Below, piece after piece: positions 46,459 through 60,351 of a stretch of 64,000 bases of DNA; position 1 is the stretch's first letter, and each line of letters begins with the position of its first letter. Below the pieces are notes generated by a model, which saw only the letters and a program-made list of their open reading frames with translations, did not search any database and was not told where the DNA came from. This DNA is from Geothrix sp. (GTDB lineage: Bacteria > Acidobacteriota > Holophagae > Holophagales > Holophagaceae): the NCBI RefSeq assembly GCF_030219325.1, contig NZ_CP126625.1, positions 1,600,857 through 1,664,856 on the forward strand, given 5' to 3'. The translations under genes and the position numbers were made by a program.

Positions 46459-47339
46459 GCAGGAAGCACGTCACAGTCGCCACGCGGGGATCCGCTCTGG
46501 CCGTGGGTCAGGCCGAGCCCATGGTGCGGTTCCTCGAGGCCCGGGGCTATGAAGTCTCCTGGCGCAAGTTCTCCACCTCCGGCGACCAGTGGCTGCAGGG
46601 CCCCCTCGACAAGCAGGTGGGCGGCGGCTTCTTCACCAAGGAACTGGAGGACGCCATGGCCGCGGGCGCCGCGGACCTGCTCATCCACAGCCTCAAGGAC
46701 GTGTCCCTGGAGCGCCCGGCGGGCATTGTCCCGGCCTGCATCCCCCTCCGCGAGGACCCCTCGGACTGGATGGTGATCCGTCCGGATGCCCCCGAGGATC
46801 TGGTCATCGGCACCAGCGCCGTGCGCCGCGAGCGTGTGCTCAGCCAGCTCTTCCCCAGGGCCCGCTTCACCTGGATCCGCGGCAACGTGCAGACGCGCCT
46901 GCAGCGCGTGCGGGACGGCGTCCTCCGGGACGAGCCCGTGCACGCCACCCTGCTGGCGGCCGCGGGCCTGAAGCGGCTCGGGCTGGATCTCTCGGGGCTC
47001 ACTGTGCGTCCGCTGACGCCGGAGGAGCTGCCCTCCGCGCCGGGGCAGGGGGCCCTGCTGGCCGAGGCGAGGGCGGACCGTCCAGACCTCATCGAGGCGC
47101 TCTCGGACATGCATGACGCCATGACGGCCCGCTGCGTCACCCTGGAGCGCCAGGTACTGGCCGGCATCGGGGGCGGATGTCAGCAGCCCCTGGGTGCCCT
47201 GGCCACACCCCAGGCCGACGGGACCCTGCTGCTCCAGGCGGCCTATGCCCCGGACGGCGACCTCCGCCGGGCCGAGGCTCGCGGCACGGACGACAAGGTC
47301 CTGCTGGCGGCGGTCCTCAAGGGCATCGGCCTGTCATGA
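46455..47339 (+). CDS. hemC: Hydroxymethylbilane synthase (porphobilinogen deaminase)
   Basis: A 294-residue enzyme that links four porphobilinogens into hydroxymethylbilane. The N-terminus VTVATRGSALAVGQAE, the conserved VGGGFFTKELEDAM (canonical K-G-FTKE), HSLKDVSLE with the catalytic Asp, GTSAVRRERVL, and RGNVQTRLQRV are visible. The dipyrromethane cofactor attaches to Cys242 in GGGCQQPLGA, the same number as in E. coli. Overlaps of 4 bases (ATGA) with hemA before and hemD after indicate translational coupling. Confidence 0.95.
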   Translation: MSRKHVTVATRGSALAVGQAEPMVRFLEARGYEVSWRKFSTSGDQWLQGPLDKQVGGGFFTKELEDAMAAGAADLLIHSLKDVSLERPAGIVPACIPLREDPSDWMVIRPDAPEDLVIGTSAVRRERVLSQLFPRARFTWIRGNVQTRLQRVRDGVLRDEPVHATLLAAAGLKRLGLDLSGLTVRPLTPEELPSAPGQGALLAEARADRPDLIEALSDMHDAMTARCVTLERQVLAGIGGGCQQPLGALATPQADGTLLLQAAYAPDGDLRRAEARGTDDKVLLAAVLKGIGLS

Positions 47340-48043
47340 CACCCGCCTCCCACCATCCCCGCTTGGCGCTCGCCCGGCCCGCCCAGCATCCGCTGGCGGA
47401 CATCGTGCGCAAGGCCGGTTGGCGGCCGGTCCCCTATTCCTTCACCTCCCTGCGCGTCACCGGCGCGGCCCCACCCATGCTGCTGAACCGTGTCCAGGCT
47501 CTGCTGATCCTGAGCCCTTCCGGGGCCAAGGTGGCGGCACCGGTCCTTCCCGCGGGGATGACCTGCCTGGTTCAGGGGGCCGGCACGGCCGACGCCCTGG
47601 GGCGCGAGGACCTGGATGTCCAGCTTCCCGTCGAGGCCCGGGCCGAGGCCTTGTGGGAGCTGTTGCAGAGGCGCTTCCCGCAGGGTGGAGAGTTCATCCT
47701 GGTCCGCGGCGAGCGCAGCCGTGAATACCTGGAAGTGGCCGCGCGGGGCTCCGCCTGGCGCCTCCACCCCTGGGTCACCCACCGCGAGGCGGCCCGGGAA
47801 CCCTTCCCGGCCCTGCCGAAGGTGGAGGGTGTCCTGGCCCTGAGCCCCACCCAGGCCGAGATCCTCGCACCGCTCTCGCAGGGCGTGCAGCGCTTCGCCT
47901 GGGGCGAGGCCACGGCCGAGGCCTTCGCCCGGGCCGGCGCCCCGGTCGACGCGTACTGTGAACCGAAGCCCAGCCTTCTGTGGGCCATGCTCGCCCAGCA
48001 CCTGGCATCTCAAGAGAACCCGAAGGAGGAGTCCCCATGCTGA
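47336..48043 (+). CDS. hemD: Uroporphyrinogen-III synthase (divergent)
   Basis: A 235-residue protein with the two-lobed layout of HemD: LALARPAQHPLADIVRKAGWRPVPYSF, ALLILSPSGAKVAAP, GAGTADALGREDLD, GEFILVRGERSREYLEVAARGSAW, and VLALSPTQAEILAPL. HemD sequences are very variable, and this one has few strict matches. The assignment rests on its place between hemC and hemB, its 4-base overlap with hemC, its 7-base overlap with hemB, and its length. It closes the linear tetrapyrrole with inversion of ring D. Confidence 0.82.
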   Translation: MTPASHHPRLALARPAQHPLADIVRKAGWRPVPYSFTSLRVTGAAPPMLLNRVQALLILSPSGAKVAAPVLPAGMTCLVQGAGTADALGREDLDVQLPVEARAEALWELLQRRFPQGGEFILVRGERSREYLEVAARGSAWRLHPWVTHREAAREPFPALPKVEGVLALSPTQAEILAPLSQGVQRFAWGEATAEAFARAGAPVDAYCEPKPSLLWAMLAQHLASQENPKEESPC

Positions 48044-49014
48044 ACCGCTCCCGCCGCCTCCGCACCAGCGCCGCCATGCGCAACCTGGTGGCCGAGACCG
48101 ATCTCCGGCCCCGGCATCTCATCCAGCCCTACTTCGTGCAGCCCCAGGCGGGTCGAAGCGAGATCTCCAGCCTGCCGGGCATCGACCGGGCCGGCGTCGA
48201 GGAGACCGTCCGCCAGGTGGAGAAGGACCTGAAGAAGGGCCTCGCCAGCGTGCTGCTCTTCGGCGTGCCCGATGCTGAATCCAAGACTCCGGACGGCCGC
48301 TACGCCTGCGACCACACCGGCGTGGTGCCCGTGGCCGTGCGGGCCCTGAAGAAGGCCTTCGGCTCCGACCTCATCGTCATGACCGACGTCTGCCTCTGCG
48401 GCTGCACCAGCCATGGCCACTGCGGCGTGGTGGACGAGAACGGCGTGGTGAGGAACGACGAGACCCTGCCCATCCTCGCCGAGATGGCCCTGCGCCACGC
48501 CGAGGCCGGCGCGGACGTGGCCGCCCCCAGCGACATGATGGACGGCCGCGTGTCGGCCATCCGCGACGTGCTCGATGCGAACGGTTTCACCCAGACCAGC
48601 ATCCTGAGCTACGCCATCAAGCATGCGGGCGCCTACTACGGGCCCTTCCGCGAGGCTGCCGACAGCAGCCCCAAATTCGGTGACCGCAAGACCTACCAGA
48701 TGGATCCCCGCAATGCCCGCGAGGGCCTGAACGATGCGCTGCTCGACGTGGACGAGGGTGCGGACATGCTCATGGTGAAGCCGGCCCTGCCGAACCTCGA
48801 CCTCATCTGGCGTCTCCGCGAAGCCCAGTTGGCGCCCATCTGCGCCTACCATGTGTCCAGCGAGTTCAGCAGCGTGAAGGCGGCGGATCGCCTGGGCTGG
48901 GTGAACGGCGACCAGCTGATGTACGAGCACCTCATCGCCATCCGGCGCGCCGGCGCCGACATGATCGTCACCTACGCCGGTCGCGAGGCCGTCGAAAAGG
49001 GTTGGATCTCCTGA
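48037..49014 (+). CDS. hemB: Delta-aminolevulinic acid dehydratase (porphobilinogen synthase)
   Basis: A 325-residue enzyme condensing two ALA into porphobilinogen. The start at 48037 follows GGAGGAG and overlaps hemD by 7 bases. [32 protein letters not shown] (three Zn-binding cysteines, so a zinc-dependent type), DMMDGRVSAIRD, and the Schiff-base lysine 248 in MVKPALPNLD are clear. A second active-site lysine is in LSYAIKHAGAYYGPFR. A palindromic repeat follows its stop. Confidence 0.97.
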   Translation: MLNRSRRLRTSAAMRNLVAETDLRPRHLIQPYFVQPQAGRSEISSLPGIDRAGVEETVRQVEKDLKKGLASVLLFGVPDAESKTPDGRYACDHTGVVPVAVRALKKAFGSDLIVMTDVCLCGCTSHGHCGVVDENGVVRNDETLPILAEMALRHAEAGADVAAPSDMMDGRVSAIRDVLDANGFTQTSILSYAIKHAGAYYGPFREAADSSPKFGDRKTYQMDPRNAREGLNDALLDVDEGADMLMVKPALPNLDLIWRLREAQLAPICAYHVSSEFSSVKAADRLGWVNGDQLMYEHLIAIRRAGADMIVTYAGREAVEKGWIS

Positions 49015-49020
49015 ATTTGA

Positions 49021-49091
49021 AACCGCAGATGACGCAGATGGCGCAGATAAATCAGCCATCTTCATCTGCGAAATCGGCGTCATCTGCGGTT
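49021..49091. repeat. Palindromic repeat, GCAGATG type, copy A (hemB-hemL gap)
   Basis: Left arm starts AACCGCAGATGACGC (49021-49035) and its complement ends at 49091, with the interior arms also pairing with few mismatches (about 31 bases per arm, 10-base loop 49051-49060). Spaced GCAGATG heptamers give it a tandem look. It begins 6 bases after the hemB stop and ends 18 before the hemL start. It could form a strong hairpin in the operon transcript. Confidence 0.85.
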
Positions 49092-49109
49092 AATCCTTTT
49101 GAGGTTTTC

Positions 49110-50366
49110 ATGAGCAACGAATCCATGTTTCAAGAAGCGCTCACCCACTTCCCCGGAGGCGTCTCCAGCCCGGTGCGGGCCTTCCGGGCGGTGGGCGGCA
49201 CGCCGAAGTTCTTCAAGAAGGCCAGTGGCGCCTGGTTCGAAGACGAGGACGGCCAGCGCTTCCTCGACCTCTGCATGTCCTGGGGCCCCCTCATCCTGGG
49301 GCACGCCCACCCTGACATCCTGGCCGCGGTGAACGAGGCCATGCAGGAGGGCCTCACCTTCGGCGCCCCCAGCCGCCGCGAGCTGGCGCTGGCCCGTCGC
49401 ATCAAGGAGATGGTGCCCTTCATCGAGAAGATGCGCTTCGTGTCTTCGGGTACCGAAGCCGTCATGTCGGCCCTGCGTGCCGCCCGCGGCTTCACGGGCC
49501 GCGAGCGCATTCTGAAGTTCGAAGGCTGCTACCACGGCCACAGTGATGGACTGCTGGTGAAGGCCGGCTCCGGCCTCGTCACCTTCGGCGCCCCCACCAG
49601 CGCCGGCGTGCCCAAGGCCATCGCCGAGCTGACTTCCGTCGTGACGCTCGATGACCTGGAGACCCTGGAGCGCACCTTTGCCGAGATCGGGAACGAGCTC
49701 GCCGCGGCCATCATCGAACCCATCCCCGCCAACAACGGCCTGCTGCTGCAGCGTCCCGAGTTCCTCAAGCGGCTCCGCGAGCTCTGCACGAAGCACGGCG
49801 TGGTCCTCATCTTCGACGAAGTCATCAGCGGTTTCCGCGTGGCTCCGGGCGGTGCGGCCGAGCGCCTGGGCATCACGCCGGACATGGGCACCTACGGCAA
49901 GATCATCGGCGGCGGCATGCCCGTGGGCCTCTACGGCGGCCGCAAGGACATCATGGGCGTGGTCGCGCCCGACGGCCCGGTCTACCAGGCCGGCACGCTG
50001 TCCGGCAATCCCGTGGCCATGGCCGCGGGTCTCGCCACCATGGAAAAGCTCACCCCGGCCTTCTACGCGGGCCTGGAAGCCAATGCCGAGAAGTGGGCCG
50101 CGGCCTTCGAGACCATCCCCGGCCTCCACTGCCCCCGCTACGGCAGCCTGCTCTGGCCCCTGTTCCAGGATGGCGTCCGCCGCAGTGATGCCGTGAAGGG
50201 CGAGGCCATCGGCACCTTCAACCGCCTCCACAAGGCGCTGCTGGGCCAGGGCGTCTATCTGCCCCCCAGTGGCTACGAAGTGGCCTTCCTCGGTTCCGCC
50301 CACGGCGAGCCCGAGCTGGCCCACTTCAAGCAGGCCGTGGCTGCTGTGGCCAAGGACTTTGTTTGA
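49110..50366 (+). CDS. hemL: Glutamate-1-semialdehyde 2,1-aminomutase
   Basis: A 418-residue PLP enzyme that turns glutamate-1-semialdehyde into ALA, following HemA. A GAGG precedes the ATG at 49110 by 5 bases. FPGGVSSPVRAF, SWGPLILGHAHPDI, VSSGTEAVMSALRAARGFTGR, KFEGCYHGHSDGLLVKAGSG, and the PLP lysine 264 in MGTYGKIIGGGMPVG are diagnostic. VYQAGTLSGNPVAMAAG is also conserved. It is flanked on both sides by copies of the same palindromic repeat, as if inserted in, or bracketed within, the operon. Confidence 0.97.
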   Translation: MSNESMFQEALTHFPGGVSSPVRAFRAVGGTPKFFKKASGAWFEDEDGQRFLDLCMSWGPLILGHAHPDILAAVNEAMQEGLTFGAPSRRELALARRIKEMVPFIEKMRFVSSGTEAVMSALRAARGFTGRERILKFEGCYHGHSDGLLVKAGSGLVTFGAPTSAGVPKAIAELTSVVTLDDLETLERTFAEIGNELAAAIIEPIPANNGLLLQRPEFLKRLRELCTKHGVVLIFDEVISGFRVAPGGAAERLGITPDMGTYGKIIGGGMPVGLYGGRKDIMGVVAPDGPVYQAGTLSGNPVAMAAGLATMEKLTPAFYAGLEANAEKWAAAFETIPGLHCPRYGSLLWPLFQDGVRRSDAVKGEAIGTFNRLHKALLGQGVYLPPSGYEVAFLGSAHGEPELAHFKQAVAAVAKDFV

Positions 50367-50440
50367 AACCGCAGATGGCGCAGATGCTGACGCGCCAACC
50401 TTGATTCCTTTCATCTGCGAAATCTGCGCCATCTGCGGTT
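50367..50440. repeat. Palindromic repeat, GCAGATG type, copy B (hemL-hemE gap)
   Basis: Arms AACCGCAGATGGCGCAGAT (50367-50385) and its exact complement (50422-50440) pair over 19 bases. It starts directly after the hemL stop codon and ends 17 bases before the hemE start. It shares its right half (CATCTGCGAAATC, ATCTGCGGTTAA) with copy A, so both derive from one family. Confidence 0.85.
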
Positions 50441-50457
50441 AAAGATCTGGAGTTCCC

Positions 50458-51444
50458 ATGCAGCCCCTTCTTCATGTGCTCAACGGCAACACCCTCGACA
50501 AGCCCCCGGTCTGGTTCATGCGCCAGGCGGGGCGCTTCCTGCCGGAGTACCGCGAGGTGCGGGCCAAGGTCACCTTCGAGCAGCTGCTCAACGACTCAGA
50601 CCTGGCGGCGGAAGTGACGCTGCAGCCCATCCGCCGCTTTCCGCAGATCGACGGCGCCATCATCTTCAGCGACATCCTCGTGATCCTGGATGCGCTGGGT
50701 TGCGAAGTCACCATTCCCGAAGGCGGGCCCCGCATCGGCAAGACGCTGGACCAGATCGACATCAACCGGCCCCTCGACGAGAAGGTCTTCGAGCCGGTCT
50801 GCAACGCCATCCGCAAGGTGAAGGCGGCTCTGCCGCCCAAGGTGACCATGCTGGGCTTCGCGGGCGCGCCCTGGACCCTTCTGGCCTACGGCATCGAAGG
50901 GAAGGGCAGCAAGAGCTGGGCGAAGGCGAAGGCCTTCATCCACCAGAATCCCGTACTGGCCCAGAAGTGGATGGACAAGCTGGCGGACGCCGCCGCCCGC
51001 CTGCTGAATCTGCACATCGAGGCCGGTGCCCAGGGCGTGCAGCTCTTCGACACCTGGGCGGGCGAATTGGATGCGGACGACTACGCGACCTTCGCGCTGC
51101 CCTCCGTGAAGCGCACCCTGTCTCAGGTGACCGCGGCACCGACCCTCTTCTTCGCCCGCACAGGCTACCTGCCGGATTCCTTGAACGATCTGCCCTGCAA
51201 GGGGCTGGCGGTGCCCTGGCAGGTGCCCATCTCCGAGGCCCGGCGCCGCTTTCCCAAGATGGTGCTCCAGGGCAACCTCGATCCCGTCGCATTGTTGGCC
51301 GGCAAGGAAACCGCCACCCGGAAGGCCCGCGCCATCGTGGACGCCATGAAGGGGCACCCCCACGTCTTCAACCTCGGCCACGGCCTGACGCCCGAAACCG
51401 ACCCCGCCGTGGTGGGGGCTGTGCTTGATGAGGTGAAGGCATGA
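50458..51444 (+). CDS. hemE: Uroporphyrinogen decarboxylase
   Basis: A 328-residue enzyme that decarboxylates the four acetate side chains of uroporphyrinogen III to give coproporphyrinogen III. The N-terminal PPVWFMRQAGRFLPEYR is the signature, with the conserved Arg residues; IIFSDILVILDALG contains the key Asp. GFAGAPWTLLAYGIEG and LQGNLDPVALL, plus HVFNLGHGLTPETDP, are other invariant blocks. A GGAG lies before the ATG at 50458. It overlaps hemN by 4 bases. Confidence 0.97.
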   Translation: MQPLLHVLNGNTLDKPPVWFMRQAGRFLPEYREVRAKVTFEQLLNDSDLAAEVTLQPIRRFPQIDGAIIFSDILVILDALGCEVTIPEGGPRIGKTLDQIDINRPLDEKVFEPVCNAIRKVKAALPPKVTMLGFAGAPWTLLAYGIEGKGSKSWAKAKAFIHQNPVLAQKWMDKLADAAARLLNLHIEAGAQGVQLFDTWAGELDADDYATFALPSVKRTLSQVTAAPTLFFARTGYLPDSLNDLPCKGLAVPWQVPISEARRRFPKMVLQGNLDPVALLAGKETATRKARAIVDAMKGHPHVFNLGHGLTPETDPAVVGAVLDEVKA

Positions 51445-52811
51445 ACCAGCTCGCCGATCTCATCCGCCGCTATGACCGGCCCGGGCCCCGCTACACGGGC
51501 TACCCCATGCCGCCGGCCTGGAGCGACGACTTCCCGGAGCCCGAGATCCTCGCGGCCCTGGATCGTGCCGACGCCCGCAAGGACGAGGCCCTGTCGCTCT
51601 ACCTGCACATCCCCTTCTGCCCCCGGCGCTGCGCCTATTGCGGCTGCAACGTGGTGGTGAGCCCCCAGTACGACCCCGTGGAGGCCTACCTCGAGGCCGT
51701 CACCAAGGAACTCGATCTGGTCTGCTCCCACCTGAAGGACCGCCGCAAGGCCCTGCAGCTGCACTGGGGCGGCGGCACGCCCACCTACCTGAACGCGGCC
51801 GATCTCAAGCGCACCTTCCAGCTCTTCAAGGACCGCTTCGAGTTCCTGCCGGGCGCGGAGATCGCCATCGAGGTGGATCCCACGTATCTGGAACCGGATC
51901 AGCTGCCCGCGCTGCGCGAGCTGGGCTTCAACCGCGTCTCCTTCGGCGTGCAGGACCTGGACGAGAACGTGCAGGCCCTCATCACCCGGGGCCAGACCTG
52001 GGAGCACACCCTCACGGCCATGCGCCAGTGCCGGGAGCTGGGCTTCGAGGGCGTGAACCTGGACCTGGTCTACGGCCTGCCGGGCCAGACCATGGACACC
52101 TTCCGCCGCACGCTGGAATCCACCCTGGAGCTGTCGCCGGACCGCATGGCCATCTACGGCTTCGCCTACCTGCCCAGCATCATGCCCTTCCAGCGCAGCA
52201 TCCCCGCCGAGACCCTGCCCTCGCCGGAGTTACGGCTGGACCTGCTGCTCATGGCCTCCGACATCCTCGAGAAATCCGGCTACGTGCCCATCGGCATGGA
52301 TCACTTCGCCCATCCCGATGACCCCATGGCCAAGGCCGTGCAGGAGGGGAAGCTCATCCGCAACTTCATGGGCTACGCCGTGAAGGCGGGCTCGGACCTG
52401 CTGGGCTTCGGCCCCAGCGCCATCTCCAACGTGGCGGGTGTCTACGCCCAGAACGAGAAGATCCTCTCCAAGTGGGAACACAGCATCCGGGATGGCCATC
52501 TGGCCATCCACAAGGGGCACCGCCTCTCAGAGGACGACGAGCTGCGCCGCTGGGTGATCCATCACCTCATGGGGCACTTCGAGCTGCGCTGGTCGGAGCT
52601 GCAGGAGAAGTTCGGCGTGGACGGGCCCGTCCTCTTCGCGGATGCGGTCGTGCAGCTGCTGGAGGAAGTCCCCCAGGGCACCGTGGAGGTGCGCCCCGAG
52701 GGCATCTTCATCACCCACCTGGGCCGGCGCTTCGTGCGCAACCTGGTGCAGCCCTTCGACGCCTACCTGGCCAAGCTCAGCGCCAAGACGCCTTTTTCCA
52801 GGACCGTATAA
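51441..52811 (+). CDS. hemN: Oxygen-independent coproporphyrinogen III dehydrogenase
   Basis: A 456-residue radical SAM enzyme. The motif LYLHIPFCPRRCAYCGCN carries the CxxxCxxC cluster-binding cysteines plus the extra Cys-Asn that marks true HemN rather than HemW. RYTGYPMPP at the start, HWGGGTPTYL, and DLVYGLPGQTMDTFRRTLE fit well. It converts coproporphyrinogen III to protoporphyrinogen IX without oxygen, which suits an anaerobic or microaerobic organism. No protoporphyrinogen oxidase or ferrochelatase gene follows in this window. Confidence 0.95.
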   Translation: MNQLADLIRRYDRPGPRYTGYPMPPAWSDDFPEPEILAALDRADARKDEALSLYLHIPFCPRRCAYCGCNVVVSPQYDPVEAYLEAVTKELDLVCSHLKDRRKALQLHWGGGTPTYLNAADLKRTFQLFKDRFEFLPGAEIAIEVDPTYLEPDQLPALRELGFNRVSFGVQDLDENVQALITRGQTWEHTLTAMRQCRELGFEGVNLDLVYGLPGQTMDTFRRTLESTLELSPDRMAIYGFAYLPSIMPFQRSIPAETLPSPELRLDLLLMASDILEKSGYVPIGMDHFAHPDDPMAKAVQEGKLIRNFMGYAVKAGSDLLGFGPSAISNVAGVYAQNEKILSKWEHSIRDGHLAIHKGHRLSEDDELRRWVIHHLMGHFELRWSELQEKFGVDGPVLFADAVVQLLEEVPQGTVEVRPEGIFITHLGRRFVRNLVQPFDAYLAKLSAKTPFSRTV

Positions 52812-52854: not shown

Positions 52855-52953
52855 GTGGAGACCCGCCCGTTGGGACCAGGGCTCCCAGCTGCGGCCCCAT
52901 CGGTGGTCTCCGCGAACCAGCCTGGCGAGCCAGGCGATGTCGCGGAGGGTTCC
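52855..52953 (+). promoter_or_regulatory. Structured 5' leader that may sequester the ribosome binding site
   Basis: CTCCGCGA (52908-52915) pairs exactly with TCGCGGAG (52940-52947), whose GGAG is the ribosome site. Between them GCCTGG (52920-52925) pairs with CCAGGC (52930-52935) around CGAG. The first arm is part of GGTCTCC (52905-52911), which could instead pair with GGAGACC (52857-52863) at the very 5' end. TGGGA (52871-52875) and TCCCA (52883-52887) add another stem. The two states are mutually exclusive, as in a translational switch. Confidence 0.55.
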
Positions 52954-53460
52954 ATGTCTCGGACTCTGTTCCTCCTGCTTCCGGCCCTGGTGCTCACGGC
53001 CCAGGATTCGGCCGTCCCGGGCGCCACGGAGGTGCGCCCCGGGGTCTTTGTGCTGCGCGGCGCCCCTGACAGTCAGACCTGTGCAGCCATCAAGAAACAG
53101 CACATCACGCACGTGATCGACCTGCGCCGGGACGGGGAAACCAACCTGAACTGCGAATCGGAGTCGGTCCGCATGCAGGAGCTGGGCGTGCAGTACGTGC
53201 GGTACGCCATCGGGAAGGCACCGCCGGCAGGAGACTTCGACTTCCTGCGGACCCTCCTCCGGGATCTGCCTCGGGGGGCCAAGGTGCTGCTCCACTGCAG
53301 CAACGGCAACCGGGCCGCGGCCGCGATCTGCCCCTGGCTGGTCCTCGACAAGGGCATGCCCGTGGAAGAGGCGCTGCGGATCGCGAAACTCGCGGGCCTG
53401 CAACTGCCCGAGACCGAGGCGGCCGTGCGTGGCTACATCGGGAGCAGGGCGAAGGCCTAG
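52954..53460 (+). CDS. Exported dual-specificity / tyrosine-phosphatase-like protein (HCX5R)
   Basis: A 168-residue protein with a signal peptide (MSRTLFLLLPALVLTAQ). The P-loop is LLHCSNGNRAAA, with nucleophile Cys115 and Arg121, and the general-acid region may be in the YVRYAIGKAPPAGDFDF loop. THVIDLRRDGETN is the usual DSP strand-loop. It resembles small bacterial phosphatases of the DUF442/BLH group. Being exported, it may act on periplasmic phosphate esters. Its stop overlaps by 4 bases that of the convergent membrane-protein gene of the NosL-type operon. The leader looks regulatory. Confidence 0.75.
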   Translation: MSRTLFLLLPALVLTAQDSAVPGATEVRPGVFVLRGAPDSQTCAAIKKQHITHVIDLRRDGETNLNCESESVRMQELGVQYVRYAIGKAPPAGDFDFLRTLLRDLPRGAKVLLHCSNGNRAAAAICPWLVLDKGMPVEEALRIAKLAGLQLPETEAAVRGYIGSRAKA

Positions 53461-54449
53461 AGTTTCAAGGGGGACAGGACCATCCAGACCCCCACGACCA
53501 GTGTGAAGGCCAGGGCCAGGACCAGGCTCATCCACACAAGGCGGGCCTGGATCCCCGGCAGGCTCGAGGCGAGGCTCCGGCATCGGCGGAACGGGGCGAG
53601 GGCTCCCACGCCGAGGCCGGCGATGGTGCCGCCGAGCAGCGTTCCATAGATCGGGTAGCCCACGAACCCGTATTCCCGCTGGAGCAGGCAGAAGGGGCAG
53701 TGGTGGGTCGGCAGCTCGTAGATGTAGAGGCAGAAGAAGGAGAGCAGGGCGGCCACCGCCACACCGAGGAAGGCGAGGCTGAACAGGGAGAAGGCGGCCG
53801 CGCCTCGCCTCGTGCGCAGGAAGGCCCCCCCGCCCGCCAGCAGGGCCGCGAAGGTGGCCCAGAAGACCGGCCGCATGAGGCCGGGAGACAGGCTCGCCAG
53901 CTCGGAGGCGAAGCCCTGGCGCCCCTGGCCGAAGAGGCTCCCGCAGCACGAGGTCATCACATCGGCTTTCAGGCCCAGGAGGTAGCTGGTCTGGAGCCAG
54001 GTCTCCGCCAGGACCAGCGGCACGATGACCAGGAGCAGCGCGTACTTGGGGCGGATGAGGGGATAGTCGTGCCCCTGGGTGTCCGCCCGCTGGAGGATCA
54101 GCCAGACCCCGGCGACCAGGCAGGTGGCGATCTTCACCAGAAGGGTCGGATAGCCGTAGCCGTTCACCGCCAGGGAACCGGCCGCGCACATGGCCCCCAC
54201 GAACTGGGTATGCAGGCCGTCCGCCGTGTAGATGAAGAGGAAGAGCGAGAGGATCTGGATCGCGAGGGCGGTGGTGACCAGGGTCGAGACCAGGTAGGTC
54301 CTGCGTTCCAGGTCGAGCTGACCCTCGCTGCCGCTCTGCAGGTCCCACCCGCGGAGGATCCGCAGGCCCTGCCAGCCTGCGGCCACGAGCAGCAGGCTGA
54401 CCATGCCCGAGGCGAGCAGGAGCGCGAGGATGCCCGGGTGCTGGATCAT
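53457..54449 (-). CDS. Polytopic membrane protein with CC and HHCPFC motifs, NosL-cluster associated
   Basis: A 330-residue protein with about nine hydrophobic helices. Cysteines stand out: Cys88, a Cys168-Cys169 pair in MTSCCGSLFG, and Cys251 and Cys254 in THHCPFCLLQREYGF. The CPFC pair next to two histidines suggests thiol redox chemistry or metal binding near the membrane surface. It is the last gene of a minus-strand operon and its start overlaps the ABC ATPase stop by 4 bases. I do not recognise a named family. It could be a redox partner or metal-handling component for the transporter. Confidence 0.6.
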   Translation of the reverse strand: MIQHPGILALLLASGMVSLLLVAAGWQGLRILRGWDLQSGSEGQLDLERRTYLVSTLVTTALAIQILSLFLFIYTADGLHTQFVGAMCAAGSLAVNGYGYPTLLVKIATCLVAGVWLILQRADTQGHDYPLIRPKYALLLVIVPLVLAETWLQTSYLLGLKADVMTSCCGSLFGQGRQGFASELASLSPGLMRPVFWATFAALLAGGGAFLRTRRGAAAFSLFSLAFLGVAVAALLSFFCLYIYELPTHHCPFCLLQREYGFVGYPIYGTLLGGTIAGLGVGALAPFRRCRSLASSLPGIQARLVWMSLVLALAFTLVVGVWMVLSPLKL

Positions 54450-55165
54450 GCGCGGGCCACGATCCGCCCATCGCGCATCTCCACCACGCGGTCCGCCAGG
54501 GGGGAGTCGTACACGATCGGATCGTGGCTGGTGATGAGGAGGGTCTTGCCCGCGGCCTTGAACTGGCCCATGAGGGCCATGAAGTCCTCCGAGAGGCGGG
54601 AGTCGAGGTGGGCGGTGGGTTCGTCGGCGATGATCACGAGGGGATCGTTGATGAGGGCCCGGGCGATGGCCACGCGCTGGGCCTCGCCTCCGGAGAGACG
54701 ATCGACGGAGGCGCGCAGGTGCCGGGCCAGTCCCAGGCCCTCCAGCCGCTGGATGGCGCGGGCCTCCAGCTGGTCGTGGTCACCACCCGCGGGATAGGTC
54801 GGGAGCAGGACGTTCTCGAGCACGGAGATGCCGCGGATCAGGTTGAACTGCTGGAAGATGAACCCGAAGGTCCGCCGGCGGATGGCCGTGAGGAAGCGCT
54901 CGGGAAGGCTGGTGATCTCGAGGGAGTCTCCTTCGGAGTGGCCGGGCAGCGTCCCGGCCGGAAGACCATGGAGGTGGATGCGTCCGGAAGTGGGGCGGGC
55001 CATGCAGCCGATCAGGGTCAGGAGGGTCGTCTTGCCGGACCCGCTGGGGCCCTTGAGCACGGTGAGCCCACCCCCGGAGATGGTGAGGCTGACGTCGTCC
55101 ACCGCGGTGAACGGCGTGGCCAATCCGGCCGCGTAGGTCTTGGTGACGCCCGACAGCTCGATCAT
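54446..55165 (-). CDS. ABC transporter ATP-binding protein (MacB/LolD type)
   Basis: A 239-residue ATPase. Walker A is GPSGSGKTTLL, the Q-loop is FQQFNLIRG, the signature is LSGGEAQRVAIARAL, Walker B is LVIIADEPTAHLD, and the H-loop is in LLITSHDP. The pattern is of the LolD/MacB/FtsE group, which act with FtsX-like permeases. Its start shares a base with the stop of the permease gene and its stop overlaps the next gene, so all are translated together. Substrate is unknown; NosF-like or mechanotransmission roles are possible. Confidence 0.9.
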   Translation of the reverse strand: MIELSGVTKTYAAGLATPFTAVDDVSLTISGGGLTVLKGPSGSGKTTLLTLIGCMARPTSGRIHLHGLPAGTLPGHSEGDSLEITSLPERFLTAIRRRTFGFIFQQFNLIRGISVLENVLLPTYPAGGDHDQLEARAIQRLEGLGLARHLRASVDRLSGGEAQRVAIARALINDPLVIIADEPTAHLDSRLSEDFMALMGQFKAAGKTLLITSHDPIVYDSPLADRVVEMRDGRIVARA

Positions 55166-56301
55166 CAGGACCTCATCGCCGCGTCCGGGTCCACCGTGGC
55201 GGCCCGCCAGATGGGCACCAGGGTGGCCGCGGTGTAGGGCAGCACGGTGAGGAAGAACAGGACCGTGAGCTGGTAGGCGTCGAGGGCGGGCAGCAGCCGG
55301 TAGCGCGGGAAGAGCACGGACCAGCCCTTCAGCGCGTGCTCAAAGAGGGAGGCGGAGAAGAAGAAGACGTGGGCATAGCCCAGCAGGACGCCGCTCAGGA
55401 AAGCGGTCAGCGAAATCACGGCCCCCTCCCAGACCTTCAAGAGCAGCACGTCAGCGCTCTCCCAGCCGATGGATTTGAGGATGCCGATCTCCCTGCGTTC
55501 TTCGGCCGAGAGGCCCGTGGCCTTGTCCCAGGCGAAGATGATGAAAGCCAGGATCGCCGAAGCCAGCACCACGACCATGAGGCCGCCCCGCCAGTCGAAG
55601 ATGGCCTCGTAGGTCCGGAGGATCTCGGATTTCAGGATGGGTCGCGTATCGGGGAACCGCTCGACGATCTTGGCGGCGATGGTGGGCAGCTCCCGCGGAT
55701 TTCCCGCGGTGATCGCGAGGTCGGTGGCGAGGCCCTCGGGGAAGTTGAAGAGGGCCCGGACATCCCCGGGTGACATGAGGACCAGGTCCGAGGACACCAG
55801 CTCCGAGTCTTCCGGCAGGACCTTCTGGACCGCATAGAGGCTCGGCAGCCCTGCGTAGCTGCGCAGGCTGATGAGGTCGCCCTCCTTCACCCTCATGCTG
55901 CGGGCGACGCCCTGGCCGATCCACACCGCGTCGGCCGCCAGGGCCGGGTCCCCGGTGGCCATGACCGTGAGGTTCCCGCCGTAGACCGGATCATAGTAGT
56001 AGCCCCACAGCCTGGGCTGGACTTCCTCAACGCCGCGGATGGCGCGGATGGCCTCGGCCTGGATCACGGGGATGGGGTCGTGGCGGCCGGCGACCATGCG
56101 CTGCACCACCATGTCCGGTGCCTGCACCAGGAGCTCCCGCGCCTCGCGCTTGAGGGCCTGGACGAAGAAGATCAGCGAGGCGATGACGAACACGACCAGC
56201 GTGTAGACGCCAAGCAGGGCCAGATTCCGTCCCTTCCGCCGCAACAGCGAGGAGAGGGCGAAATCAAGGATGTTCCGATACCGCTGGAGAGGTGCGCGCA
56301 T
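55165..56301 (-). CDS. ABC transporter permease, FtsX/MacB type
   Basis: A 378-residue permease starting at 56301. It has one N-terminal helix (LALLGVYTLVVFVIASLIFFV), a large periplasmic domain of the MacB_PCD kind (about residues 45-235), and three C-terminal helices, LMVVVLASAILAFIIFAW, AVISLTAFLSGVLLGYAHVFF and LFFLTVLPYTAATLVPIW, the FtsX arrangement. EERREIGILKSIGW is the typical coupling loop. Its start lies inside the end of the preceding small-protein gene, so expression is coupled. It pairs with the ATPase encoded next. Confidence 0.85.
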   Translation of the reverse strand: MRAPLQRYRNILDFALSSLLRRKGRNLALLGVYTLVVFVIASLIFFVQALKREARELLVQAPDMVVQRMVAGRHDPIPVIQAEAIRAIRGVEEVQPRLWGYYYDPVYGGNLTVMATGDPALAADAVWIGQGVARSMRVKEGDLISLRSYAGLPSLYAVQKVLPEDSELVSSDLVLMSPGDVRALFNFPEGLATDLAITAGNPRELPTIAAKIVERFPDTRPILKSEILRTYEAIFDWRGGLMVVVLASAILAFIIFAWDKATGLSAEERREIGILKSIGWESADVLLLKVWEGAVISLTAFLSGVLLGYAHVFFFSASLFEHALKGWSVLFPRYRLLPALDAYQLTVLFFLTVLPYTAATLVPIWRAATVDPDAAMRS

Positions 56302-56605
56302 GGGGACTCGGGAAGGTCGGCGGAGCCACGAGGGAACCGGAGGGGAAGTGGTCCAGCCCCATGGGGTGGTCCTGGAAGGCGGCATGCCGGTCGGCCATGG
56401 CGGGATGCCGGGTATAGCGGGCTTCGGTGAAGAGGCAGAGATCCGTGAGGCCGAGGCTGCGCACCAGGACGGCGCTGGCCTGGCGCTGCCGCGCGGCGGG
56501 ACCGGCCTGGGCCTTCGCATGGAGGAGCATGCCGAGGAACAACGCCGCTTGGACGCCGATCAGGGACAGGCAAAGGGTGGATTTGCGCATGGGCGGTAGG
56601 GCCAT
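56264..56605 (-). CDS. Small membrane-anchored protein of the NosL-type cluster
   Basis: A 113-residue protein. The ATG at 56605, with GAGGG about 10 bases upstream, is preferred; an ATG at 56590 is possible. One hydrophobic helix (TLCLSLIGVQAALFLGMLL) anchors the rest in the periplasm. The middle, LTDLCLFTEARYTRHPAMADRHAAFQDHPMGLDHFPSGSLV, is rich in His, Asp and Met, could bind metal, and reads like a constrained, conserved block. The end (APPTFPSPHARTSP) is disordered and overlaps the permease start. I know no named family. Confidence 0.6.
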   Translation of the reverse strand: MALPPMRKSTLCLSLIGVQAALFLGMLLHAKAQAGPAARQRQASAVLVRSLGLTDLCLFTEARYTRHPAMADRHAAFQDHPMGLDHFPSGSLVAPPTFPSPHARTSPAVSEHP

Positions 56606-56632
56606 CGGGAACGGTCCCTCACAGGATAGCCG

Positions 56633-57124
56633 TCACTCCAGGGATTTCAGGGTGTCGGGCGTGACCTCCCGGAAGGTCAGGACCCTCACGCCGTGGTGGT
56701 CCCTGAGGAAGTCCCGCGCCGCGGACTCGGTGCCGAAGGGGACCAGTTCCCTGCCCATGGGGCCCATGACGTCACTGCCGATCACGAAGAAGGCCTGGCG
56801 CCCGTCGACGTGCTTCAGGCCGTAGTAGTCCTTCACCAGGATGAGGGTGATGTCCCCGACATTCCGCTTCGCCGCGTAGCGCTTCAGATCGAGCAGGTAG
56901 GTGAAAAGGTCCTTGGGGCCATCGAACCAGGCCTGGGCCCCATCCTTGAAGGAGATGACCGCGGCCCAGTCGGGGAAATTGGCCACATACATGCCGCAGA
57001 CGGCGCAGTTCCCCTTGGGGACCGGTCCCTTGGCTTTCTGCGTGGGCTTGGGTCCCGCCCATAGCCCCAAGGGCAGTCCGGTCAGCAGGAGGGCCAGAAG
57101 CGTGCACCTGAGTCGGATCTTCAT
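56633..57124 (-). CDS. NosL-like protein, exported
   Basis: A 163-residue protein with a signal sequence (MKIRLRCTLLALLLTGLPLGLWAG). The NosL core is clear: CAVCGMYVANFPDWAAVISFKDGAQAWFDGPKDLFTYLL, with Cys40, Cys43 and Met45, the residues that in NosL-type proteins bind Cu(I). Unlike typical NosL, no proper lipobox follows the signal, so it may be soluble or anchored by an uncleaved helix. NosL normally delivers copper to nitrous oxide reductase; no nosZ is in the window. It is the first gene of a five-gene overlapping operon. Confidence 0.85.
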   Translation of the reverse strand: MKIRLRCTLLALLLTGLPLGLWAGPKPTQKAKGPVPKGNCAVCGMYVANFPDWAAVISFKDGAQAWFDGPKDLFTYLLDLKRYAAKRNVGDITLILVKDYYGLKHVDGRQAFFVIGSDVMGPMGRELVPFGTESAARDFLRDHHGVRVLTFREVTPDTLKSLE

Positions 57125-57265: not shown

Positions 57266-57339
57266 CTGAAAGACCCTAGTCAAGACCTGCCCATCATCGT
57301 TAGGCTGTGACCTCAAGCTCACTCGGACCGAGGAAGACC

Positions 57340-58002
57340 ATGGCCGCGGAACAGAAACACAGGCTGGTCATCGCGGAGGACCACACGATCCTCCGTGAGG
57401 GGCTGAAAGCGCTGCTGGCTGCCCGGCCGGAACTGGAAGTGGTCGGGGAGGCCACGGATGGCCGGGACGCGATCCGCTGCGCCGAGGAACTGACGCCCGA
57501 CCTGATGCTGCTGGATCTCTCCATGCCCCGCTCCAACGGGCTGGAGGCCTTGAAGGAGATCAAGCGGCTCAGCCCGAACACGAAGGTCCTGGTGCTCACG
57601 GTCCACAAGACCGAGGACTACGTCTTCACCGCCCTTCAGAACGGCGCGGATGGTTACGTGCTGAAGGACTCCTCCTCTTCCGAGCTGACCATGGCCGTGC
57701 GCAGCGTCCTGAACGGAGAGCGCTACCTCAGCCCCGCGATCGCCACCACGGTGGTGTCCGGCTACCTCAGCTCCAAGGACGGCATCTCCCTGAAACCCGG
57801 CTTCGACGATCTGTCGAGCCGAGAGCGGGAGGTGCTGAAGCTCATTGCGGAGGGCTACCGCACCAAGGACATCGCCGAGTACCTCTGCATCAGTCCGAAG
57901 ACGGTGGAGAAGCACCGCGCGAACCTGATGGACCGGCTCAACCTGCACTCCGTGTCCGCCCTGACGGCCTATGCCATCGAAAAGGGCTTGGTCACGAAGT
58001 AG
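57340..58002 (+). CDS. NarL/FixJ family response regulator
   Basis: A 220-residue regulator; GAGGAAG lies 5 bases before the ATG. The receiver domain (1-120) has acidic residues in VIAEDHTIL, the phosphoacceptor Asp in LMLLDLSMPRSNG, the switch Thr in VLVLTVHK, and the conserved Lys in GYVLKDS. The C-terminal LuxR-type HTH includes LSSREREVLKLIAEGYRTKDIAEYLCISPKTVEKHRANLMDRLN. The cognate kinase is encoded convergently, with an 11-base overlap of the 3' ends. The neighbouring NosL-type operon is divergent from it, so it may be a target. Confidence 0.93.
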   Translation: MAAEQKHRLVIAEDHTILREGLKALLAARPELEVVGEATDGRDAIRCAEELTPDLMLLDLSMPRSNGLEALKEIKRLSPNTKVLVLTVHKTEDYVFTALQNGADGYVLKDSSSSELTMAVRSVLNGERYLSPAIATTVVSGYLSSKDGISLKPGFDDLSSREREVLKLIAEGYRTKDIAEYLCISPKTVEKHRANLMDRLNLHSVSALTAYAIEKGLVTK

Positions 58003-59818
58003 ATTCCTCCGGCAGGGGCCACCGGGCGATGACCATCGTGCCCTCGCCCGGGGACGACGTGAGGATGAGGGAGCCGCCGAAGAGTTCGGCCCGCTCCCGC
58101 ATGGAGGCGAGTCCGAACCCGCCGGCGGAAGTGTGCCGGCGCACTTCTCCCGGATTGAAGCCCACGCCGTTGTCCCCCACCACGAGCTGGAGGTCGCCCA
58201 GCACTTGCCGCAAGGCCACGGTGACCCTCGTGGCCTGGCTGTACTTGGCCGCGTTGTTCATGGCCTCCTGCATGATCCGGAAGATGTTCGTCTTGAGGAT
58301 CTCGGGAACTTCGAACTCCTCGACCTCGATCAGGCGCTCCACGTCCATGTGGGGATAGGTGGTCTGGAATTCCCGGGTGAACCAGGCGATGGTGGCGAGG
58401 AGCCCGAGATCATCGAGGGTCGTCGGCCGCAGGGCCATGGAAATGCGCCGGACCTCTTCCACCGAGGACTGGATCACGGGGACCACGGCCCGGAGGCTCC
58501 TGGTCTGCGGGCTTTCGGGGCCGGAGGCGGCCTGCTCGTCGAGGGCCCGTTCCACCATGAACTTCACGGCGCTCAGGGACTGGCCGATGCTGTCGTGGAG
58601 TTCCCGCGCCACGCGCTGGCGCTCGCTTTCCTGCGCGGACATGAGCCGGGCGGAGAGGCGGTGCAGGGTCTCGCGGGAATCCCTCAGGGCCTGTTCGGCC
58701 TTGTGGCGCTCTGTGATGTCCTGGATGTTCCCGAGGAGGGCGAACTCCCCCCCGTACCGGATCAGAGCCGTCCTGCCGCTGATCCAGCGGGTTTCGCCGC
58801 CCGAGTGGAGGATGCGGCATTCGTAGTCCTGGGAGGCGCCGGTGCCGGCCAGGCGCCGCCGCCACATCTCCCGCACCATGGCCCAGTCCTCGGGGTGGAT
58901 GATGTCGGCCACGTCCATGGCCGCGAGGTCGGGCTGGGACCGGCCCACCATCTGGAAGAACCGCTGGTTGGCGAACTCCAGGCGTCCGTTCCGGTAGATG
59001 AAGATCCCCGTGGGCGAGTTCTCGACGACGGTGCTGTACTTCTCCTCGGAATCCCTGATGGCGGCCTCGGCCGATTTCCGTTCTGTGATGTCCATGAAGG
59101 TGTAGACGAACCCGGCCACGGATCCGTCGCCGCGCCAGATGGTCGAGCAGGTCAGGTAGGCGGGAAAGGAGGAGCCATCGCGGCGGATCGCCTTCACCTC
59201 GCCGGTCCAGCCCTTCACCGCCCCGAACCCGGAGAGCCCGCTGCGGGCCGCCTCCGACGTGAATCCGGTCACTTTGGCGAGCGTCTGGTTCCGGACTTCA
59301 TCCTCGGTCCAGCCGAACATCCACTCGGCGAACCGGTTCCAGTAGAGGATGACCCCGCCCTTGCCGGTGGCGACCACGGCCTGCTGGACCACGGCGAGGA
59401 TTCGCGCCTGGAACTGGATGCGCGCATCGGCCTTGGTGCGCTCGAGGGCCTCGGCCCGGATCCGCTCTTCCGCATCCAGGCGGAGGAACTCGTTGGAGGC
59501 CCGGACTTCAGTCAGCGCCCGTTCGGCCTCGGCCTTGGCGAAGAGGTCGCGGACCATGGGCTTGATGAGGAGGAAGTAGATGGACGGGAAGCAGACGAGG
59601 ATGAGCGTCGCTGAATCCACGAAGGCCATGGTCAGGTGGTCCTCCCCGAAGACGGGTTCCAGCAGGACCATGATCGTGAGCTCGGTGATGACGATGATCG
59701 CGCAGACCGTCAGGAAGGCACGCAGCAGCTTCCCAGGGCGGAAGGAGGCCGGCGGGTCCCGCTCCGGCGCAAGGGGCCGGATGGGGATCGGGGCCTTCGA
59801 TGGGCGAGGGGCGGTCAG
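57992..59818 (-). CDS. Membrane PAS-PAS-HisKA_3 sensor histidine kinase, apparently starting at CTG
   Basis: The frame is open to a stop at 59824. The segment before the first ATG (59671) encodes a convincing transmembrane helix (LRAFLTVCAIIVITELTIM), so that ATG is too late. The only well-placed initiator is CTG at 59818, 6 bases after GAGG in GAGGTGAT, giving 608 residues. Order: two helices, coiled coil, two PAS domains (about 170-290 and 300-410), then HisKA_3 with His in ARELHDSIGQSLSAV, then a HATPase (NIFRIMQEAMNNAAKYSQA, VGDNGVGF). It fits the NarX type and pairs with the NarL-type regulator. Confidence 0.82.
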   Translation of the reverse strand: MTAPRPSKAPIPIRPLAPERDPPASFRPGKLLRAFLTVCAIIVITELTIMVLLEPVFGEDHLTMAFVDSATLILVCFPSIYFLLIKPMVRDLFAKAEAERALTEVRASNEFLRLDAEERIRAEALERTKADARIQFQARILAVVQQAVVATGKGGVILYWNRFAEWMFGWTEDEVRNQTLAKVTGFTSEAARSGLSGFGAVKGWTGEVKAIRRDGSSFPAYLTCSTIWRGDGSVAGFVYTFMDITERKSAEAAIRDSEEKYSTVVENSPTGIFIYRNGRLEFANQRFFQMVGRSQPDLAAMDVADIIHPEDWAMVREMWRRRLAGTGASQDYECRILHSGGETRWISGRTALIRYGGEFALLGNIQDITERHKAEQALRDSRETLHRLSARLMSAQESERQRVARELHDSIGQSLSAVKFMVERALDEQAASGPESPQTRSLRAVVPVIQSSVEEVRRISMALRPTTLDDLGLLATIAWFTREFQTTYPHMDVERLIEVEEFEVPEILKTNIFRIMQEAMNNAAKYSQATRVTVALRQVLGDLQLVVGDNGVGFNPGEVRRHTSAGGFGLASMRERAELFGGSLILTSSPGEGTMVIARWPLPEESTS

Positions 59819-59849: not shown

Positions 59850-60284
59850 CTATCGGATGTCGAGGAGTTCCAGCTCGAAAATCAGGGTGGACCCGGGGGG
59901 GATGTCCTGGCCCAGTTCCCGGGGGGAATAGCCGAGGCTGGGGGGGACCCGGAGCAACCTCCTGCCGCCCTTCTTCATGGTGGCCAGTCCTTCCTCCCAG
60001 CCCTTGATCACCCGCCCGCCACCCAGCGGGAAGGTGTCGGGGAAGCCCCGTTTCCGCGTATCCAGGAAGGACCTGCCCTTGGCGCCGCCCTCCTCGATCC
60101 AGCCCTGGGCCTCCACGTTGCAGGTCTGGCCGATTCTGGGAGAAGGCCCCTGTCCCGGTGCGAGATCCAGCACGCCGAGCCCACTGGGAAGGGTGGTCCA
60201 GGCCGCGGCGCCGGTCTGAGGGGACCTGCAGCCGAAACCAAGGAAGGAGATCAGGACGATGGAAAGGGCTGCACGGAAGCGCAA
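59850..60284 (-). CDS. FKBP-type peptidyl-prolyl isomerase, exported
   Basis: A 144-residue protein. I start at the TTG at 60284, 6 bases after GGAGG, giving MRFRAALSIVLISFLGFGC, a signal sequence ending in a lipobox-like Cys. The FKBP domain (about 45-144) shows WIEEGGAKGRSFLDTRKRGFPDTFPLGGGRVIKGWEEGLATMKKGGRR and the terminal LGYSPRELGQDIPPGSTLIFELELLDI. It likely helps protein folding outside the cytoplasm. A TTG at 60317 is in frame but has no ribosome site. The histidine kinase gene begins 31 bases downstream. Confidence 0.85.
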   Translation of the reverse strand: MRFRAALSIVLISFLGFGCRSPQTGAAAWTTLPSGLGVLDLAPGQGPSPRIGQTCNVEAQGWIEEGGAKGRSFLDTRKRGFPDTFPLGGGRVIKGWEEGLATMKKGGRRLLRVPPSLGYSPRELGQDIPPGSTLIFELELLDIR

Positions 60285-60351
60285 GGCGGTCCTCCATATG
60301 ACTTGATGGACCGTCAAGGCTACCAGAATCTGAGTTTGGCGGGGACTGGGA

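Follow-up and report, generated by a model that had tools for sequence, protein, structure and literature searches.

What does a NosL protein do beside an ATP-binding cassette (ABC) permease and ATPase when no gene for nitrous oxide (N2O) reductase lies with them? According to passages of two papers, NosL serves, with an ABC protein, the assembly of the copper sites of N2O reductase (PMC6530538, PMC7558416). The question is raised by a run of five minus-strand genes in Geothrix sp. (Acidobacteriota, Holophagaceae), whose genome is a single contig of 3.73 Mb carrying one NosL gene. The run, called here the cassette, lies in a stretch of 64,000 nucleotides (NZ_CP126625.1, positions 1,600,857 to 1,664,856) that was analysed as a whole and is referred to as the window. 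The cassette is tied to copper and not to N2O, and we incline, by a little, to the view that it is a periplasm-facing machine that loads copper into exported cuproproteins, chiefly a giant multicopper oxidase and its SCO and cytochrome c partners. The five genes are as follows:

56633..57124, minus strand: NosL-family exported protein (PF05573) with the CxxCGM motif (CAVCGM) and without a lipobox
56264..56605, minus strand: small protein with one N-terminal membrane helix and a conserved tail, of an unnamed family
55165..56301, minus strand: ABC permease (PF02687), ATG start, assigned to type VII (FtsX/LolC-like)
54446..55165, minus strand: ABC ATPase (PF00005)
53457..54449, minus strand: CPFC protein, an eight-helix membrane protein in its AlphaFold2 (AF2) model, of an unnamed family

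These are the five open reading frames that a first-pass annotation, made from the letters alone, had placed in one run in this order with gaps of at most 27 bases, and all of them are present: 27 bases separate the NosL gene from the small gene, and the other three junctions overlap by 38, 1 and 4 bases. The CC and HHCPFC motifs that it had read in the polytopic protein are there as well.

Recurrence and parts of the cassette

Relatives were collected by a scan, at one genome per species, based on an alignment of seven CPFC proteins, and the best 80 of 448 were used; with six further fetched loci they make 86 loci, 84 of them distinct (L009 equals L051 and L010 equals L054). The titles of the best 80 name Holophagaceae, Geobacter-type and other Deltaproteobacteria, Nitrospirae, Methylococcales and a Marinimicrobia bin, the nearest named relatives being Geothrix and other Holophagaceae. 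Beside the CPFC gene lie the ATPase gene in 85 loci, the permease gene in 83, the small gene in 78 and the NosL gene in 68, several of the absences being contig ends. All five genes occur together in 67/86 loci, in the same order and strand in 63 of those, and the four genes other than NosL in 78/86, colinear in 76. Thus, the cassette recurs well beyond its own genus, and the sharing of one gene order by several phyla means that the arrangement is not a matter of chance. In a sample of the phylum, the CPFC gene was found in 7 of 199 genomes, all seven of which also have NosL, a family present in 27 of the 199; the own genus contributes 14 of these genomes, of which five carry the two genes together and the remaining nine lack both. 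At the genome level, a set composed of the window genome and 48 more, which we selected, mostly on longer contigs, from the 66 loci L057-L122, has NosL in 49/49.

The NosL-like exported protein of the first-pass annotation is a true member of PF05573 (97.9 bits, cut-off 24), and the solved NosL chains 7og7 and 7osf match it with E values of 8e-9 and 2e-8. Residues C40, C43, G44, M45, D68, D142 and H143 are kept in 68/68 aligned cassette NosLs. The motif CAVCGM of the window protein fits the published CXM / CXXCXM motif, given as a NosL feature, and its CXXCXM form as that of clade II NosLs, in passages of PMC6530538; by their sequences, the cassette NosLs would bind Cu(I). A lipobox-like string precedes CxxCGM in only 4/68 of them and is absent from the window protein, so that the earlier idea of a metal-loaded lipoprotein receives little support. 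In a NosL tree that took 57 of the 68 cassette NosLs, all 57 group together in a 66-row clade (support 0.98); the sole genome with a full-length NosZ match carries, on its NosZ contig, a NosL that lies outside this clade. The nine other rows of the clade are three cassette NosLs under other identifiers (L041, L131, L136), five from cassette genomes (L132-L135, L140) and one (L020) from a genome without a CPFC match; in the genomes of three loci with no adjacent NosL (L076, L083, L093), a member of the clade is encoded on a different contig (L134, L135, L140).

Two further kinds of NosL were observed near cassettes. A second type (CxxCGMDR...CSLHC) often precedes the cassette NosL, in 32/86 loci and in L148 (e.g., L069:4822-5337), and all 20 of its members placed in the tree lie within a clade of 22. 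Beside three cassettes, two in Methylococcales records and one in a Geobacteraceae bin, lies a NosL domain fused to the outer-membrane-barrel-type domain Phenol_MetA_deg (L122:10031-11464, L088:9547-11022, L094:2458-3879; in L088 the score of the latter is just under the cut-off), and these proteins are perhaps copper chaperones tied to the outer membrane.

The permease, announced as FtsX/MacB-type, is retained in its FtsX half, since it passes PF02687 (34.7 bits, cut-off 25.5) and fails MacB_PCD (19.6 bits, cut-off 27). Its closest solved chain is LolC (E 1e-4), and its hydropathy, a single N-terminal segment and a C-terminal group, suggests a large periplasmic domain between them. The ATPase passes ABC_tran (PF00005, 96.6 bits), as had been predicted, and has Walker A, Q loop, signature, Walker B and H loop; its best NCBIfam rows are MacB, FtsE, DevA and LolD, each under its own cut-off. 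Neither LolCDE (lolCE 42 bits of 362.45; LolD 151.6 of 307.75) nor MacAB, given the failed MacB_PCD and an ATPase encoded by a separate gene, is recognised here. Taking into account that the permease belongs to the FtsX family and is nearest LolC, and that the ATPase is FtsE/LolD/MacB-like with all its motifs, the pair is, by sequence, a type VII ABC pair. Passages of a paper on this class state that its systems typically act on the periplasmic side and carry no substrate across the membrane, and that their function is set by a partner protein, by which they are also sorted (PMC12646458). The transport across the envelope suggested in the first pass is thus unsupported, and by analogy with the class the pair is presumed to do ATP-driven work in the periplasm.

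The small protein, which had been described as anchored and rich in His, does have its membrane helix; its His residues are mostly unconserved, with about 90% conservation only at H67 (53/59) and H86 (56/59). What is strongly conserved is a tail of about 45 residues (LTDLCLFTEARYTRHP...FQDHP...HFPSGSL), and seven columns of the 59-row alignment are invariant. At E 1, neither Pfam nor NCBIfam yields a match to the protein, and a search of the PDB (Protein Data Bank) sequences with its profile gave nothing usable. In the AF2 model of the protein alone (pLDDT 75.9, pTM 0.44) the conserved tail stays unfolded, which, together with the single membrane helix, would fit a docking peptide.

The CPFC protein is modelled with pLDDT 91.1 and pTM 0.90, and eight membrane helices were read from the long helices of the model, in which GAMC, TSCC and HHCPFC sit in three loops on the outward side. 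Across the 72 CPFC proteins, M87, C88, C168, C169, H249 and C251 are invariant, H250 is kept in 71 and C254 in 70; as the scan used the peptides P[TLG]HHCPFC and [QVL][FL][VAP]GAMCA[AV], invariance at these two motifs is partly selected, and that of C168 and C169 is unselected. Basic residues average 1.9, 3.2, 2.0 and 4.0 per protein in loops 1-2, 3-4, 5-6 and 7-8, and 0.2, 1.4 and 0.8 in the three Cys loops, so that by the positive-inside rule the Cys loops of the model should face outward. No family matched the window protein; for the 72 members, 18 Pfam families were listed at E 1, none of them credible and PF02600 (DsbB) not being one of these. Searching PDB sequences with the profile gave nothing usable, and the best Foldseek match of the model in the PDB had an E value of 0.09, with none at E 0.001. 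The top rows of VIA-align are four-helix bundles over one half of the protein, with Z up to 13.5, about the level that the tool calls common for helical models; the rows shown are helical bundles, G-protein-coupled receptors and other helical proteins, and the lack of a DsbB/VKOR fold among them proves nothing. The CcmF row (6zmq; 201 residues, Z 10.7) was set aside as a match with its rmsd (root-mean-square deviation) of 5.3, as was an internal duplication suggested by the helix pattern, for which hhalign gave 0.3% and no sequence support was found.

Copper context and the giant multicopper oxidase

N2O reductase was sought with the clade II model TIGR04246 only, which finds matches in 20/49 cassette genomes; a single one is full-length (473 bits, below the cut-off of 625) and lies on a different contig from the cassette, and the others cover the C-terminal CuA part only. 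The own genome has just a match of 61 positions in the CuA region, which bears out the absence of nosZ for this clade II model. No NosD match was obtained among the six cassette-region proteins scanned, in agreement with the absence of nosD noted before, the genomes themselves not having been searched for NosD. With a full-length NosZ in 1/49 genomes, maturation of N2O reductase is rejected as the function of the cassette, and its members are evidently not confined to nos or macAB clusters.

Neighbours were counted in the flanks (8 kb at most) of the 66 loci L057-L122 by similarity to one example each, with a Pfam check on the examples only; two of these loci belong to the own family (L087 and L063, the latter titled Bacillota and probably a mislabelled bin), and without them the same numerators stand out of 64. 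CusA was found in 18 loci, TlpA-like proteins in 10, multicopper oxidases in 9, SCO in 7 and a cytochrome c/periplasmic-binding protein in 4, and at least one of the five in 35/66. The 18 CusA neighbours, some cut by contig ends, are 48-94% identical to that of L069, whose best alignment is with E. coli CusA (979 bits; ZneA 507), and three Met positions, which we take to be the CusA metal site, are kept in 15/16 members of the cluster. In 48 genomes, 12 CusA loci were observed versus 0.37 expected by chance with kinship ignored, and all 12 coincide with TIGR00914 matches over the cut-off. One locus (L083) has a heavy-metal P-type ATPase and a DsbD-like protein (DsbD_2).

The haem-copper sulfite reductase MccA has a NosL-like helper, and such an enzyme was considered as a client; multihaem genes are few beside the cassette (8/66 loci), and the candidate was dropped. 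As a separate observation, proteins that combine a cytochrome c with a periplasmic binding protein domain were seen repeatedly next to SCO and multicopper oxidase genes, both in the own family and elsewhere:

Cytochrome c/binding proteins: L117:2773-4368, L102:4143-5840, L229:6033-7928, L144:843-2747

A giant multicopper oxidase lies in the flank of 7/66 loci (L067, L069, L072, L076, L084, L105, L107) and near the cassette of two genomes of the own family, so that two phyla share this proximity. Giant is defined here as a PF07731 match in an open frame of at least 1000 residues, a cut set after seeing the data. The own genome encodes one of 1621 residues (L142:3327-8192, minus strand), 46-48% identical over about 950-1000 residues to the oxidases of three neighbour loci; it combines multicopper oxidase domains with carboxypeptidase-regulatory-like repeats, its closest solved chain is CotA laccase, and it is, from its sequence, probably exported. 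When giant frames were fetched from the own family, each of the 13 matched this group, with about 45-55% identity. In one genome (G268), the giant oxidase, 4.8 kb from NosL, stands with SCO and the cytochrome c/binding protein in a run that diverges from the cassette, and after this run come the regulator, kinase and FKBP genes known from the flank of the window cassette. In another (G252, locus L148), a single strand carries the giant oxidase, whose distance from NosL is 9.9 kb, together with a second NosL, the SCO and cytochrome/binding protein genes and the cassette.

Among 47 genomes of the own genus, the giant oxidase is present in 18/20 with the cassette versus 4/27 without it (Fisher 2.3e-7; any PF07731 match, 19/20 versus 5/27), and among 77 of the own family in 19/25 versus 5/52, these two-by-two tables being independent of the tree and one genome (G255) being scored cassette-positive on 38 residues at a contig end. 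On a tree built from one gene (UvrB), with several genomes incomplete and p taken from a chi-square approximation, a model of dependent evolution is favoured over an independent one, both in the genus (likelihood ratio 18.3, p 0.001, 45 tips) and in the family (34.0, p 7e-7, 72 tips), as it is for any PF07731 match (p 7e-4 and 2e-4, respectively). The giant oxidase is therefore a likely client of the cassette.

Several points weigh against copper loading as the function and this oxidase as its object. Outside the own genus, its association with the cassette is not significant (1/5 versus 1/25, p 0.31), and in a sister genus (g2) a multicopper oxidase occurs in 0/4 genomes with the cassette and 1/2 without it. 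In the own genome, 1.66 Mb separate the giant oxidase from the cassette, and 57/66 loci have no oxidase in the fetched flank. NosL is absent beside 18/86 cassettes, some at contig ends, and the commonest neighbour, CusA, fits detoxification equally. The limits of the statistics, namely the single-gene tree, the approximate p values, the incomplete genomes and the disregard of kinship in the CusA expectation, tell in the same direction.

Proposed mechanism and competing explanations

The first-pass suggestion of an undescribed machine that moves copper, another metal or a metal-loaded lipoprotein across the envelope survives as copper handling outside nos clusters, a part that conservation, neighbours and co-occurrence support well; envelope transport and the lipoprotein find no such support. 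In the mechanism that we infer, which extends to complex formation, the direction of transfer, Cu(I) binding and the client, NosL would carry Cu(I) in the periplasm, and the small anchored protein would probably be the docking arm that brings it to the type VII ABC pair. Binding and hydrolysis of ATP in the cytoplasm would then move the periplasmic domain by mechanotransmission, so that copper leaves NosL, and the CPFC protein, through its five outward cysteines, would receive or supply Cu(I) or thiols, or keep them reduced. The copper would end in exported cuproproteins, that is, the giant multicopper oxidase and the SCO and cytochrome c partners. The more specific proposal that NosL, the adaptor and the CPFC protein form with the type VII pair an ATP-driven copper-insertion complex, serving giant exported multicopper oxidases and other cuproproteins in several phyla, is made tentatively, at somewhat less than even chances.

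The main rival to copper loading, which we judge unlikely, is detoxification of copper (or silver), in which Cu(I) would be stripped from the periplasm or the membrane and fed to CusBA or an outer-membrane exit, while the oxidase would detoxify Cu(I) by oxidising it. It would account for CusA in 18/66 loci, for the nine loci in which CusA, CusB and the cassette form one run (L061, L064, L067, L069, L072, L075, L099, L107, L112), for the P-type ATPase of L083 and for the barrel-fused NosL beside three cassettes. However, the fetched flank of 48/66 loci has no CusA, and SCO, TlpA/DsbD-like and cytochrome c neighbours are of the delivery type. Copper resistance genes are often plasmid-borne, and this form of the idea is unsupported, the CPFC protein having no match in 72,556 plasmid records.

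A second alternative, which we regard as improbable, makes copper secondary and the CPFC protein a DsbB-like, quinone-linked thiol oxidoreductase for the CxxC of NosL and the cysteines of clients. Thiol chemistry by this protein is possible from its sequence: the CPFC motif, with which a membrane helix begins, is similar to the CPLC of DsbB (13 aligned columns, 22%), and TlpA-like neighbours in 10/66 loci and the DsbD_2 protein of L083 would suit it. Nevertheless, hhalign to DsbB over the whole length gives 0.2%, equal to the reversed control, with only three close DsbB rows, and H249, H250, M87 and C88 fit metal binding equally.

Even less probable is an assembly factor for the CuA and CuB sites of haem-copper oxidases, to which SCO neighbours and COX1 in 38/49 cassette genomes would point; as the other 11/49, some of them drafts, have no COX1 match, these oxidases are not obligatory clients. 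Least probable of all is that the cassette transports lipoproteins or some other envelope cargo in the manner of LolCDE or MacB, NosL being an incidental passenger, an idea suggested by the nearness of the permease to LolC among solved chains and by LolCE, far under its cut-off, in NCBIfam, and countered by 64/68 cassette NosLs without a lipobox-like string, by NosL in every cassette genome of the set, by the copper neighbours and by two extra proteins that LolCDE lacks.

Surrounding genes, related systems and significance

Three context genes flank the cassette on its NosL side in the window, and none is a proven part of it:

57307..58002, plus strand: LuxR-type response regulator (PF00072, PF00196), divergent from the cassette
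57992..59671, minus strand: PAS histidine kinase (PAS, HisKA_3, HATPase_c)
59850..60317, minus strand: FKBP-type peptidyl-prolyl isomerase (PF00254, 83.6 bits)

The regulator is in the same place in L230 and adjoins the oxidase in L229, and the kinase, probably its partner, and the FKBP gene, whose product is probably a lipoprotein as judged by eye, are retained in both loci. On the other side, a convergent gene (52855-53460, plus strand) has weak similarity to dual-specificity phosphatases and TIGR01244; it was dropped as a sixth member, since it lies beside the cassette in 17/86 loci, all of the own family. Haem synthesis genes also adjoin the cassette (45253-52811, plus strand), with glutamyl-tRNA reductase and porphobilinogen deaminase recognised by Pfam and hemL, hemE and hemN by eye only, and farther away the window encodes a penicillin amidase family protein of 789 residues (15395-17764, plus strand; 665.5 bits).

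The closest known system is NosDFY-NosL, reportedly studied by cryo-electron microscopy, in which NosY is an ABC-2 type permease. Both have a NosL-family protein, in the cassette a presumed Cu(I) chaperone, beside an ABC ATPase and a permease that would work in the periplasm; the cassette differs in its FtsX/LolC-like permease, in its two unnamed proteins, in a NosL without a lipobox, in the lack of NosD among the six proteins scanned and in the near absence of full-length NosZ from its genomes. LolCDE, FtsEX-EnvC, MacAB-TolC and YbbAP-TesA share with it the ABC class and the presumed mechanotransmission, whereas its partner would be a copper chaperone with two membrane proteins; the word "copper" is absent from the main text of the article on type VII systems (PMC12646458). 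NosL or ABC loci without nosZ have been described, in passages of two papers, as NosL-NosDFY in Parageobacillus thermoglucosidasius, for which another copper recipient was proposed, and as nosFY in Haloferax volcanii (PMC13068155, PMC9240420). The absence of NosZ from a set of Nos-type copper genes is therefore not new, and those loci differ from the cassette in being NosDFY or NosFY sets. Copper loading of an exported multicopper oxidase is likewise known from CutO of Rhodobacter capsulatus, whose maturation depends on CopA and CutF, with no ABC protein named in the passages concerned (PMC8456105). No prior account of the cassette as a whole, NosL with a type VII ABC pair and two unnamed families, was found among the listed titles and opening lines of abstracts in the open-licence literature.

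If the proposal is true, the ATP-driven insertion of copper known for N2O reductase would be a wider principle that also uses a second class of ABC proteins, and the partners of type VII systems would be joined by a copper chaperone, a kind new among them. Two unnamed protein families would gain a role, and in Geothrix- and Geobacter-type bacteria one could test directly how multicopper oxidases are loaded with copper.

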